A DNA stretch of 64,000 nucleotides from Lactobacillus johnsonii ATCC 33200 (GTDB lineage: Bacteria > Bacillota > Bacilli > Lactobacillales > Lactobacillaceae). The notes below the pieces were generated by a model, which saw only the letters and a program-made list of their open reading frames with translations, was not told where the DNA came from and made no database searches. Shown piece by piece: positions 37,078-42,945 of the stretch (positions within the stretch are counted from its first letter, which is position 1; every line of letters begins with the position of its first letter). Made by a program: the position numbers and the translations under genes. The DNA lies in the NCBI RefSeq assembly GCF_000159355.1, contig NZ_GG670120.1, positions 189,645-253,644 of the forward strand, written 5' to 3'.

Positions 37078-37110
37078 AAAAAAGCAGCCATCATACGCTG
37101 GCTGCTTTTA
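37078..37110 (-). terminator. terminator of tRNA-Arg
   Basis: AAAAGCAGCCA (37080-37090) pairs perfectly with TGGCTGCTTTT (37099-37109); on the minus strand it directly follows the tRNA and ends in six T. Confidence 0.9.
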
Positions 37111-37182
37111 TGCGCCCCCTGAGAGTCGAACTCAGATTTTAAGAACCGGAATCTTACGTGCGATCCATTACACTAAGGGCAC
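37111..37182 (-). tRNA. tRNA-Arg (anticodon CCG)
   Basis: 72 bases folding as a cloverleaf on the minus strand: acceptor GTGCCCT/GGGGCGC with G-U pairs, D arm GTGT/GCAC, anticodon stem TAAGA/TCTTA with loop TTCCGGT, T arm CTGAG-TTCGACT-CTCAG, discriminator A. The anticodon CCG reads CGG, a rare arginine codon in such an AT-rich genome. The terminal CCA is not encoded; TAAAAG follows the discriminator. Confidence 0.95.
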
Positions 37183-37248: not shown

Positions 37249-37277
37249 TTGAATTTAAAAAAAGATATTGCTATACT
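37249..37277 (+). promoter_or_regulatory. cggR-gap promoter
   Basis: TTGAAT (37249-37254), 17 bases, TATACT (37272-37277) with an extended TGC directly before it. Predicted transcription start is near 37284, giving a leader of about 120 bases. Confidence 0.7.
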
Positions 37278-37288
37278 AAAGACTGTCG

Positions 37289-37340
37289 AGAGAGAAATGT
37301 GAATTGAAATATAGTTAATTCACGTCTCTCTAATATTTTT
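37289..37340 (+). promoter_or_regulatory. leader hairpin at the 5' end of the cggR transcript
   Basis: Two-part stem: AGAGAGA (37289-37295) with TCTCTCT (37325-37331), and GTGAATT (37299-37305) with AATTCAC (37317-37323), 11-base loop. TAATATTTTT follows. It could be a 5' stabilising hairpin or an attenuator. Confidence 0.6.
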
Positions 37341-37347
37341 AAGCTTT

Positions 37348-37390
37348 TTGGGTCGCTTACCGTCATATGGTGGTATCATTTTTGACCCAA
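37348..37390 (+). promoter_or_regulatory. candidate CggR operator
   Basis: TGGGTC-N6-CGTC-N4-GGTGGT-N6-TTTG (37349-37384) has exactly the spacing of the Bacillus CggR operator (CGGGAC-N6-TGTC twice, 4 apart); the first half fits well, the second poorly. TTGGGTC (37348-37354) and GACCCAA (37384-37390) also form an outer inverted repeat. Confidence 0.45.
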
Positions 37391-37405
37391 TAGAGGGAGC
37401 GAGCA

Positions 37406-38437
37406 ATGGACTCGGATTTAACCTTGTTGCAAAGCTTAGTTCCTGATGTTTTAAAAATAATTCGGCAACGTTTTCTTGTTCTTGAACAGATTTCGCTGTT
37501 AGCTCCAGTTGGGCGAAGAGTTGTTGCTGAAAAATTAGGATTAAGCGAGCGCAATGTGCGAACTGAAACTGATTATTTACGGCAGTTAGGACTCATTAAT
37601 ATCCAGAGCTACGGTATGGAATTAACTGATAAAGGAAAGAGAACTTTAAAAGAAGCTGCTCCTTTAATCGATCGCTTGTTTAACGCTAGTCAAACTGAGA
37701 TTGAATTGGCACAAAAATTAGGGATCGATCGAGCCATTATTGTTCCTGGTGATATGGATCGACAAGAGCGCGTTGTTGACTTAATGGGTGAACAACTTAA
37801 CTCGGCACTTGATTTACTTTTACCATTAGGAAAAAGTATTATTACCGTTTTAGGTGGTACTACTGTGGCGGGAGTGGCACATCATCTTTCTCCTAAATTA
37901 AGCCGCTATCGGGATTTGTTATTTGTTCCCGGAAGAGGAGCAGTTGGAGAAAGCGTTGAAATCCAGAGTAATACTGTTGCTCAGATGATGGCTTCTGAGA
38001 CAGGTGGAAAGCATAAAGGGCTATATTTACCTGAAAATGTTTCATCTGAGGCTTTGACTTTGTTGCTTCAAGACACAGATATTGCGAATGCGATTTCAAA
38101 CATTTATAATAGTGATATGGTGATACATGGAATTGGGAGAGCAGATGTCATGTCAAAGAGACGTGGCTTAGATGTAATGACTAGTTCCAAGCTTCGAAAT
38201 GATGGAGCTGTGGCCGAATGTTTTGGGTATTTCTTTGACCAACAAGGTAGACTTGTAAAACGTATCCCACGGATCGGTCTTCAATTAGAAGACTTAGATA
38301 AAATACCTCATGTATTTGCAATTGCTGCTGGGGCTAGTAAAGCCTCTGCAATTGTAGCTTACATGCATCATGCTCCTAAACAAACGTGGTTAATCACGGA
38401 TGAAGGAGCCTCAAACTTGGTTTTAAAGGGGAAGTAA
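37406..38437 (+). CDS. cggR: CggR, central glycolytic genes regulator
   Basis: SorC-family repressor of 343 residues. N-terminal winged helix-turn-helix (about residues 30-75, GRRVVAEKLGLSERNVRTETDYLRQ) and a C-terminal sugar-phosphate-binding domain that senses fructose-1,6-bisphosphate in Bacillus. The conserved GGTTV and PGRGAVGE loops of the effector site are visible. It precedes gap, the universal arrangement, and probably represses its own operon. GAGGGAGCGAG before ATG 37406. Confidence 0.94.
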   Translation: MDSDLTLLQSLVPDVLKIIRQRFLVLEQISLLAPVGRRVVAEKLGLSERNVRTETDYLRQLGLINIQSYGMELTDKGKRTLKEAAPLIDRLFNASQTEIELAQKLGIDRAIIVPGDMDRQERVVDLMGEQLNSALDLLLPLGKSIITVLGGTTVAGVAHHLSPKLSRYRDLLFVPGRGAVGESVEIQSNTVAQMMASETGGKHKGLYLPENVSSEALTLLLQDTDIANAISNIYNSDMVIHGIGRADVMSKRRGLDVMTSSKLRNDGAVAECFGYFFDQQGRLVKRIPRIGLQLEDLDKIPHVFAIAAGASKASAIVAYMHHAPKQTWLITDEGASNLVLKGK

Positions 38438-38491
38438 TTCCCGTTTAAAATAAATTGTTACTTACATATTTCCTAAGGAGGAATATAAGAT

Positions 38492-39508
38492 ATGACAGTT
38501 AAAATTGGTATTAACGGTTTCGGCCGTATTGGTCGTTTAGCATTCCGTCGTATTATGGATTTAGGCGAAAAGTCTTCAGATATTGAAGTTGTTGCAATCA
38601 ACGACTTGACTACTCCAGCACTTTTAGCTCACTTACTTAAGTACGACTCAACTCATGGTACTTTCAACCACGAAGTTTCAGCAACTGATGACTCAATCGT
38701 AGTTGACGGTAAGAAGTACCGTGTTTACGCTGAACCACAAGCACAAAACATTCCTTGGGTTAAGAACGATGGCGTTGACTTTGTTCTTGAATGTACTGGT
38801 TTCTACACTAGCAAAGCTAAGTCAGAAGCTCACCTTAAGGCTGGTGCAAAGCGTGTATTAATTTCTGCACCTGCAGGTTCAGACTTGAAGACCATTGTTT
38901 ACGGCGTAAACGATGATACTTTGACTGCTGATGACAAGATTGTTTCAGCTGGTTCATGTACTACTAACTCATTAGCACCAATGGTTAATGCCTTACAAAA
39001 AGAATTCGGCATTGAAGTTGGTACTATGACTACTATCCACGCTTACACTTCAACTCAAATGCTTTTAGATGGTCCTGTACGTGGTGGTAACTTACGTTCT
39101 GCACGTGCTGCAGCTATCAACATTATTCCTCACTCAACTGGTGCTGCTAAGGCTATTGGTCTTGTTGTTCCAGAATTGAACGGTAAGTTGAACGGTCACG
39201 CACAACGTGTTCCAGTTCCAGATGGTTCTGTAACTGAATTAGTTTCAATCTTAAGCAAGGATGTAACTGCTGACGAAGTTAACGAAGCAGTTAAGAAGTA
39301 CGAAAGTCCTTCATTTGCATACAACGACCACAATATCGTTTCTAGCGACGTTTTAGGTATGACTGCTGGTTCAATCTTTGACCCAACTCAAACTATGGTA
39401 ACTACTGCAGGTGACAAGCAATTAGTTAAGACTGTTGCTTGGTACGACAACGAATACTCATTCACTTGCCAAATGGTTCGTACTTTATTGAAATTTGCTA
39501 CTCTTTAA
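38492..39508 (+). CDS. gap: glyceraldehyde-3-phosphate dehydrogenase
   Basis: NAD-dependent glycolytic dehydrogenase. Rossmann motif INGFGRIGR at residues 6-14, catalytic cysteine C156 in AGSCTTNS, and [15 protein letters not shown] at the C-terminus. 338 residues. Strong AAGGAGGA site 54 bases after cggR. Codon choice is strongly biased (GGT, GAA, CTT/TTA, AAC) compared with accessory neighbours, as expected for a very highly expressed gene. Followed by a terminator that separates it from pgk. Confidence 0.98.
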
Positions 39509-39549
39509 TCATTAATTGTTTATTACTGATTTTAAGTAAGCAGACGAGA

Positions 39550-39583
39550 GAAGGCGGAGGGAATTACTTCCTCCGCCTTTTTT
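39550..39583 (+). terminator. terminator between gap and pgk
   Basis: AAGGCGGAGG (39551-39560) pairs with CCTCCGCCTT (39570-39579), then TTTTTTC. GC-rich and strong for this genome. Only 31 bases remain before pgk, too few for a full promoter plus leader that I can see. Confidence 0.93.
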
Positions 39584-39614
39584 CAAATAATCTATCGGAG
39601 GTAAATTAGTTTAA

Positions 39615-40826
39615 ATGGCTAAATTAATCGTTTCAGACCTTGATCTTAAAGGTAAAAAAGTTTTAGTTCGTGTTGACTTCAATGTTCCAATTAAGAATGG
39701 TGTTATTGGTGACGACAACCGTATTGTTGCTGCATTACCAACTATTAAATACATCATTGATCACGGTGGTAAAGCAATTTTGCTTAGCCACTTGGGTCGT
39801 GTTAAGTCAGATGCTGACAAGAAAGAATTGTCATTACGTCCAGTAGCAGAACGTTTAAGTGAATTATTAGAAAAGCCTGTAACTTTTGTACCAGAAAACG
39901 AAGGTAAAGAAGTAGAAGAAGCTATCGACAACATGAAGGATGGCGACGTTGTCGTTCTTGAAAACACTAGATTCCAAGATATTGACAACGACTTTGGTAA
40001 GCGTGAATCTAAGAACGATCCAAAGCTTGGCGAATACTGGGCAAGTCTTGGTGATGTATTTGTAAACGATGCATTTGGTACTGCTCACAGAAGTCACGCT
40101 TCAAACGTTGGTATTGCAACTGCTATGAAGAAGGCTGGTAAGCCTGCAGCAGCTGGTTACTTACTTGAAAAGGAAATTAAGTTCTTAGGTGATGCTGTTG
40201 AAAACCCAGTTCACCCATTTGTAACTATTCTTGGTGGTGCAAAAGTATCAGATAAGATTGGTGTCATTGAAAACTTAATTCCTAAGTCAGATCACATTTT
40301 AATCGGTGGTGGTATGGCTTATACTTTCTTAGCTGCACAAGGTCACAAGATTGGTAAATCATTGTTTGAATCTGACAAGGTAGAACTTGCTAAGAGCTTG
40401 CTTGAAAAGGCTGGCGACAAGATTGTTCTTCCAGTTGATAACGTTGCAGCTACTGAATTCTCAAATGATGCTCCTCACGAAGTTGTTGGTGACGATATTC
40501 CTGACAACGAAATGGGTCTTGACATCGGTCCTAAGACTGTTGAAAAATTCAGAGATATCTTAAAAGATGCTAAGACTGTTGTATGGAACGGACCTATGGG
40601 TGCATTCGAAATGCCAAATTACGCAGAAGGTACTTTGGAAGTTGGTCGTGCATTAGCTGACTTAAAGGATGCTGTAACTATTATTGGTGGTGGTGACTCA
40701 ACTGCTGCTGCTAAGCAATTAGGAATCGCTCCTAAGATCAGTCACATTTCTACTGGTGGTGGTGCTTCACTTAACTACCTTGAAGGTAAAGAATTACCAG
40801 GAATCGCTTGTGTTTCTGACAAGTAA
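39615..40826 (+). CDS. pgk: phosphoglycerate kinase
   Basis: Makes ATP from 1,3-bisphosphoglycerate. 403 residues; signature [12 protein letters not shown] near 18-29, LENTRF, and the nucleotide-loop GGGDSTAAA near 371-379. GGAGG lies 13 bases before ATG 39615. Highly biased codon use like gap. Transcription probably comes from read-through of the gap terminator, which would tune Pgk below Gap. Confidence 0.98.
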
Positions 40827-40844
40827 AATTAGGAGGAATTTTTA

Positions 40845-41600
40845 ATGCGTACACCAATTATTGCTGGTAACTGGAAATTACACATGAACCCTGAACAAAC
40901 CATTGAATTTGTTAATGCAGTTAAGGGTAAGCTGCCAGATCCAAGTAAAGTTGAATCAGTTATTGCTGCACCTGCAGTTGATCTTTATGTTTTAAAGAAG
41001 ACTGCTGAAGGCTCAAACTTACATACTGGTGCAGAAAATGCATACTTTGAAGTTGAAGGTGCCTTTACTGGTGAAACTTCACCTAAAGTTTTGAATGAAA
41101 TGGGTATTGACTACTGTATTATTGGTCACTCAGAACGTCGCGGTTACTTCCACGAAACTGATGAAGACATTAACAAGAAAGCTAAGGCTTTATTTGCTAA
41201 TGGCGTAACTCCAATTATTTGCTGTGGTGAATCTCTTGAAACTCGTGAAGCTAACAAGCAAGATGAATGGGTAGTAGCTCAAATTAAAGCTGCTTTAGAT
41301 GGCTTAACTGCAGAGCAAGTTTCTAAACTTGTTATTGCTTACGAACCAATTTGGGCTATCGGTACTGGTAAGACTGCTTCTGCTGATCAAGCTGAAGAAA
41401 TGTGCAAGACTATTCGTGAAACTGTAAAAGACTTGTACAATGAAGAAACTGCTGAAAATGTTCGTATCCAATACGGTGGTTCAGTAAAACCAGCTAACGT
41501 AAAAGAATTAATGTCTAAGCCTGACATTGATGGTGGTTTAGTTGGTGGTGCTTCTCTTGATCCAGAATCATTCTTAGCATTAGTAAACTACCAAGATTAA
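40845..41600 (+). CDS. tpiA: triosephosphate isomerase
   Basis: Interconverts dihydroxyacetone phosphate and glyceraldehyde-3-phosphate. 251 residues; N-terminal GNWKLHMN (catalytic lysine), IIGHSERR (catalytic histidine), [10 protein letters not shown] (catalytic glutamate). AGGAGG site. Eighteen bases after pgk. Confidence 0.98.
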
Positions 41601-41616
41601 TTAACAATTTATTTAA

Positions 41617-42945
<1,329 letters not shown>

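Follow-up and report, generated by a model that had tools for sequence, protein, structure and literature searches.

The stretch of DNA analysed here (the window; 64,000 nucleotides of Lactobacillus johnsonii ATCC 33200, contig NZ_GG670120.1) carries the gene cggR (37406–38437, + strand), encoding a SorC-family central glycolytic repressor of 343 amino acids, followed in the same direction by the regulated glycolytic genes gap, pgk, tpi and eno (38492–42945, + strand), so that the operon order is cggR-gap-pgk-tpi-eno. The product of the first gene combines a CggR N-terminal domain (PF21715 CggR_N, 6e-22) with a SorC sugar-binding domain (PF04198 Sugar-bind, 2.7e-61), both above cut-off, matches the structures 2o0m (6.3e-93) and 8r3g (6e-69), and is 97% identical to CggR of L. 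taiwanensis DSM 21401; pgk is called only from a match below cut-off, to a bifunctional model. Judged by the CggR domains, the gene order and the operator described below, the locus is a CggR-regulated central glycolytic operon, for which relief of repression by fructose-1,6-bisphosphate (FBP) is predicted. CggR has also been used as a biosensor of glycolytic flux (PMC6920703). Inspection by eye placed the Shine-Dalgarno sequence of cggR (GAGGGAG) at 37393–37399 (+ strand), a palindrome, TTCCTaaggAGGAA, at 38470–38485 over the Shine-Dalgarno sequence of gap, where it could mask or expose the ribosome site, and a terminator-like inverted repeat at about 37078–37110, past the 3' end of a tRNA-Arg(CCG) gene (37111–37182, − strand) that lies upstream of the cggR promoter. 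A first-pass annotation of this DNA had described the leader of the cggR-gap operon, including a hairpin at its 5' end and an operator arrangement of the CggR type, and all the elements that it named are present.

The predicted promoter (37249–37277, + strand) comprises a −35 box TTGAAT (37249–37254), a 17-nt spacer and an extended −10 box TGcTATACT (hexamer 37272–37277), from which the start of the cggR leader is called at 37284/37285. Folding and covariation delimit a 5' leader hairpin (37289–37331, + strand) with an outer stem of 7 bp (37289–37295/37325–37331), a 2-nt bulge, and an inner stem of 10 bp (37298–37307/37315–37324) around a 7-nt loop. The two-step hairpin noticed in the first pass is thus real, although it has 17 bp rather than the 14 paired bases then counted, and the T-rich stretch reported after it is likewise there, at 37331–37340. 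The segment 37284–37342 folds at −17.9 kcal/mol (z −4.61; equal stability in 0 of 200 shuffles), and the operator part folds less remarkably (37343–37405, z −1.42; 37348–37390, z −2.42). A stable hairpin ending directly before a U-rich tract is the layout of an intrinsic terminator, and a transcript end is predicted there; a simple terminator scan did not call the leader hairpin, and the U-tract (TAATATTTTT) is interrupted in this genome.

With Rfam 15 at gathering thresholds, the only matches in the whole window were tRNA and a fluoride riboswitch (RF01734, 59905–59967, 48.1 bits), both outside the leader. A riboswitch in the cggR leader was rejected on that ground, in agreement with the first-pass remark that no known class matched by eye. 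More generally, hairpin and T-tract might form an independent attenuator or riboswitch for another signal, and theirs is the usual layout of an attenuator; we nonetheless consider this extremely improbable, given the missing Rfam match, the lack of a conserved aptamer in a stem that varies freely outside a short genus-level core, and a position that is tied to the operator.

The CggR operator (37350–37388, + strand) was delimited by sequence comparison and by the layout known from B. subtilis (PMC11229326). Its four quarter-sites are GGGTC (37350–37354), CGTC (37361–37364), a degenerate GGTAT (37372–37376) and TGACC (37383–37387, with the next C at 37388), corresponding to GGGWC, TGWC (11 bases on), GGGWC and TGWCC in the aligned leaders. 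It begins at +67 from the predicted start, within the transcribed region and too far downstream to cover the promoter. A search for GGGWC/GWC/GWCCC with at most one mismatch gave a single site in the window, a perfect match (0 mismatches), where 0.02 would be expected by chance; the same search of the whole genome gave this site alone, and a reversed control pattern also gives one. Our operator finder allowed half-site spacings of 18–23 bp and favoured 20 in its scoring. The third quarter-site scored best at 22 bp after the first, not 20, in 65/65 distinct Lactobacillus leaders, and a spacing of 20 bp was found in 62/65 leaders of other Lactobacillaceae, 27/33 of other Lactobacillales and 23/23 of Bacillus. 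The CggR tetramer would therefore bind a differently phased site in Lactobacillus. The degenerate third quarter-site GGTAT occurs in 7 of the 65 Lactobacillus leaders, those of the species group of the window. Taken at the level of sequence, 37350–37388 is a genuine CggR-type operator, although in this species group it has a degenerate right half.

The string TGGGTC-N6-CGTC-N4-GGTGGT-N6-TTTG, previously noted as mimicking the spacing of a CggR operator, is present, but the right half of the operator lies 2 bp further on than was then assumed; because the third quarter-site scores best at 22 bp in Lactobacillus, we read the right half as GGTAT...TGACC. The outer TTGGGTC/GACCCAA dyad also exists, not as a separate frame but as quarter-sites 1 and 4 of the operator. 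The idea that the dyad forms an RNA hairpin of its own ahead of the Shine-Dalgarno sequence was dropped, since the operator consensus GGGAC...GTCCC alone would give the pairing. When the fourth base of quarter-site 1 was compared with the third base of quarter-site 4, the two were complementary in 59/65 Lactobacillus, 23/23 Bacillus and 47/61 other Bacilli leaders, and were T and T in 51/65 leaders of other Lactobacillaceae and 17/33 of other Lactobacillales; as the operator consensus suffices for the pair kept in Lactobacillus, a separate RNA role of the dyad is unneeded, though the dyad could have one. The operator interior (37358–37375) also contains a small hairpin with a T-run (TACCGTCATATGGTGGTA TCATTTTT), which the simple terminator scan did call and which we discounted as a probable by-product of the degenerate right operator half.

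For the comparison across Bacilli, CggR was searched in overlapping sets of 75 genus, 151 family, 148 order, 200 class and 26 Bacillus genomes, and part of the hits were taken (a subset of those from the order and class sets), yielding 276 upstream regions (numbered L010–L285; L001–L009, several of which duplicate contigs sampled elsewhere, were left out of the counts), of which 263 were distinct and 247 had a recognised operator. The 16 distinct leaders below the operator score cut were counted neither way; among them, L143–L146 show a GGGCG-type site with a T-tract upstream. In five Lactobacillus leaders the start-to-operator call was 7, which we attribute to a false −10 call within the leader; these five were omitted from the folding and from the table of T frequency and promoter distance. 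Starts are predicted in all leaders, and the leaders are related by descent, so that counts are not independent.

In L. johnsonii, the T-rich tract TAATATTTTT (37331–37340, + strand) ends in TTTTT (37336–37340), its last T being followed by a 9-nt spacer (37341–37349, + strand) that closes with a second TTTTT (37345–37349) immediately before the operator. Of the 247 distinct Bacilli leaders whose operator was recognised, 206 have a T-run of at least 5, sought over 35 nt upstream, that ends 8–10 nt before the first GGGWC. It is present in 65/65 Lactobacillus and 23/23 Bacillus leaders, in 55/65 from other Lactobacillaceae, in 25/33 from other Lactobacillales and in 38/61 from other Bacilli. Across the 86 genera in which the operator starts at +20 or beyond, T frequency is 0.79–0.94 at positions −16 to −10 from the operator and 0.14 at −9. 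Distances were computed from T-runs of at least 4 ending 6–14 nt from the operator, and on that basis the spacer is 9 nt in 186/218 leaders counted. Its length is constant and its sequence variable across leaders (137 distinct of 195), nearly free except for T beside the operator; length is therefore what is kept. Among genus medians, the distance from tract to operator has a standard deviation of 0.6 nt (for runs ending 6–14 nt away), as against 20.8 nt from predicted start to tract and 12.8 nt from operator to approximate ATG. By these positional statistics, the tract is a companion of the operator, not of the promoter or the gene. It is also one-sided and strand-specific, with T in the non-template strand: T5 lies within 24 nt upstream of the operator in 204/228 leaders, compared with 3 for A5 upstream, 5 for T5 downstream and 22 for A5 downstream.

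Presence of the tract follows the position of the operator. In 14 leaders, all outside Lactobacillus, the operator begins less than 20 bases from the predicted start, close enough for CggR to cover the promoter directly. At least 5 T among the 8 positions −17 to −10 were found in 2/14 of these against 218/228 of leaders with the operator further downstream; counted by genus, the figures are 2/10 and 80/86, and 8.3% of background windows reach the same T content. The tract is missing in 10/228 leaders with the operator at +20 or beyond. Three leaders of one genus (L174–L176) have a hairpin at the usual operator distance with an A-rich stretch in place of the T-tract.

Two other explanations of the tract have to be weighed here. 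It could be part of the CggR binding site itself, as an extended contact or a DNA-shape element, and the constant spacing between tract and operator in the sampled leaders agrees with that; we consider this very unlikely, as the tract is one-sided, yet the CggR tetramer on DNA is C2-symmetric, the 45-bp operator of the cryo-EM complex excludes the T-tract (both PMC11229326), and leaders with promoter-proximal operators mostly lack it. Alternatively, tract and hairpin could together make polymerase pause, timing it at the operator or keeping it from backtracking, without release. In B. subtilis, TTNTTT is recognised by NusG, which works together with hairpins, T-rich non-template DNA is a NusG pause motif, and pro-pausing NusG is reportedly widespread (PMC8060035, PMC12288461), and the restriction of T to the non-template strand suits such a role. 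A pause alone, however, predicts neither the fixed operator distance nor the loss of the tract at promoter-proximal operators, the Lactobacillus form of the tract, TATATTTTTA, fits TTNTTT poorly by eye, and the main text of PMC8060035 names neither cggR nor gapA; we regard pausing without release as distinctly unlikely.

The hairpin is confined to part of the class. A stem of −6 kcal/mol or lower ending at most 3 nt from the tract was found in 60/60 Lactobacillus leaders (17.1 expected from shuffles), 61/65 leaders of other Lactobacillaceae (13.5 expected) and 21/31 of other Lactobacillales (5.1 expected). When stem arms were exchanged between leaders, cognate arms paired better than permuted ones in Lactobacillus (−12.31 vs −10.30, sd 0.24, n = 65), other Lactobacillaceae (−8.64 vs −5.76, sd 0.30, n = 65) and other Lactobacillales (−7.03 vs −4.85, sd 0.37, n = 33), a lead of about 6–10 permutation standard deviations that includes shared ancestry. 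The covariation comparison suggested in the first pass thus came out in favour of the stems. In Lactobacillus, the outer stem hardly varies, whereas the inner one shows covariation; GTCGA is present in 65/65 leaders and ATATTTTT in 57/59 distinct hairpin segments, and between genera the stem sequence changes freely. A strict pattern of the Lactobacillus hairpin and tract, too strict to match the window itself, was found in 19/75 genus genomes, once in each and next to cggR by coordinates, with 0 control matches. A repeated element was rejected, the pattern being single-copy and adjoining cggR in each matching genome.

Outside Lactobacillales, a transcribed hairpin at the tract was found in 0/23 Bacillus leaders, and a short one in 10/49 leaders of other Bacilli (for example L178, L259, L274 and L280, with L275 and L279 weaker). 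In nine leaders from other Bacilli, several of them Bacillales (L183, L187, L192, L193, L194, L195, L199, L270 and L281), the arms of a dyad flank or overlap the predicted −10 box, with T6–T8 after it; L200 resembles these, although the best promoter call there falls at a more upstream position. With its arms around the −10 box, such a dyad would be formed only by transcripts arriving from upstream. In several Bacillales, the promoter is in this sense nested in a would-be terminator for transcripts from upstream. For Bacillus proper, a dyad straddling the −10 box was unsupported and was dropped (cognate −7.74 vs permuted −7.96); in the group of other Bacillales, cognate arms gave −6.15 against −4.54 for permuted arms (sd 0.32) but won only 0.58 of pairings, and the dyad is supported in some of these other Bacillales.

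As descriptions of sequence, the layout and conservation of hairpin, T-tract and operator are firm. The function of the hairpin allows more than one account. Stabilising 5' hairpins are well known in Gram-positives, and the stem, which is strongly folded, starts about 5–7 nt after the predicted 5' end of those Lactobacillus leaders that were inspected, so the hairpin could serve mainly to shield an abundant mRNA from 5'-end-dependent decay, the T-tract being incidental or a weak spacer. We think this unlikely, as it leaves unexplained why the stem abuts the tract, why the tract keeps its 9-nt distance from the operator and why it is present even without a transcribed hairpin. The first-pass annotation had offered stabilisation, attenuation or sensing as roles of the hairpin. 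Attenuation fits best, because the hairpin abuts the T-tract at a fixed distance from the operator, stabilisation could apply but does not explain that distance, and a sensor is unsupported, since the leader holds no Rfam family and the stem changes freely between genera.

The interpretation that we prefer, with confidence somewhat short of even, is that CggR acts as a roadblock to elongating polymerase and that the leader sets the stalled polymerase on a weak terminator. The leader would be a composite of a weak intrinsic terminator (hairpin and T-tract) and, nine bases on, the CggR operator. At low FBP, CggR bound to 37350–37388 would block the path of polymerase, and the stalled enzyme would have the 3' end of its RNA on the U-tract, the place of the weakest RNA–DNA hybrid. 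The hairpin immediately upstream would then, in Lactobacillales, free the transcript. At high FBP, CggR would leave, and polymerase would cross the weak tract unhalted, so that the operon could be strongly expressed. In Bacillus and most other Bacilli sampled outside Lactobacillales, the U-tract alone, without a transcribed hairpin, would ease release. That CggR represses across Bacilli by such roadblock-triggered intrinsic termination, at a terminator too weak for a moving polymerase, we put forward more tentatively, as a possibility; the terminator would include a hairpin in Lactobacillales and certain other lineages, and would work solely during occupation of the operator by CggR.

The front edge of elongating polymerase lies about 15 bp ahead of the RNA 3' end. 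Together with the approximately 30 bp that the elongating enzyme covers (PMC4132739), this would put the 3' end of a polymerase stopped by CggR on the tract. Intrinsic termination falls 7–9 nt after the hairpin (PMC8060035), which in this leader corresponds to 37338–37340. A strong terminator in the leader of a very highly expressed operon would be costly, which counts against termination. Work on LacI roadblocks bears on the need for a release signal: weaker promoters gave more readthrough with the roadblock at 60 bp (a small effect) and 30 bp (a large one) from the start, one possible cause being retained sigma and the resistance of the stalled polymerase to Mfd, and the sequence upstream of a roadblock could affect the probability of termination (PMC4132739). 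The same study reports no promoter clogging at 30-bp spacing, with faster dislodgement a better fit than reduced termination (PMC4132739), and this weakens the need for a release signal near the start. For CggR operators at such distances (median operator starts, +33 in Bacillus and +67 in Lactobacillus), a built-in release signal could help, but the LacI data do not demand one.

The closest known system is CggR-gapA of B. subtilis, which has the same repressor family and a two-half-site operator downstream of the promoter, at +32 to +77 (PMC11229326). One Bacillus leader, L215, has an operator equal to the published one, and in this leader, as in the other Bacillus leaders, a tract of T8 or T9 precedes the operator by nine bases. 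Lactobacillus differs in the 5' hairpin that precedes the tract, in an operator that starts further from the promoter (by the medians above) and in half-sites 22 bp apart, where Bacillus has 20. In roadblocks by LacI, CcpA, CodY and C.Kpn2I, too, the binding site lies beyond the start, where polymerase has to pass. Polymerase stalled at the LacI roadblock is removed mainly by Mfd (PMC4132739), and mutation of mfd weakens the roadblocks formed by CcpA and CodY (PMC10310618); the CggR leader, in contrast, seems to have its release element built into the DNA before the block. Gram-positive attenuators based on intrinsic terminators also have, upstream of the gene, a hairpin that runs straight into a U-rich tract, whereas the regulating element in the model proposed here would be a DNA-bound repressor at a fixed distance.

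In the parts of the literature covered, which include a primer-extension study of L. plantarum cggR (PMC2654425) and exclude Doan and Aymerich 2003, we found no description of a roadblock or premature termination by CggR, of a T-tract or hairpin before its operator, or of how polymerase is cleared at a downstream CggR operator. Repressor and operator are already known; the hairpin and T-tract at a fixed distance are an element that we have not seen described in that literature. If roadblock-triggered termination by CggR is true, the manner in which a stalled polymerase is released can be written into the DNA immediately upstream of the roadblock. The T-tract at a fixed distance, present in most leaders sampled across the class, amounts to a simple and directly testable rule, and the same signature could be sought before other downstream operators.
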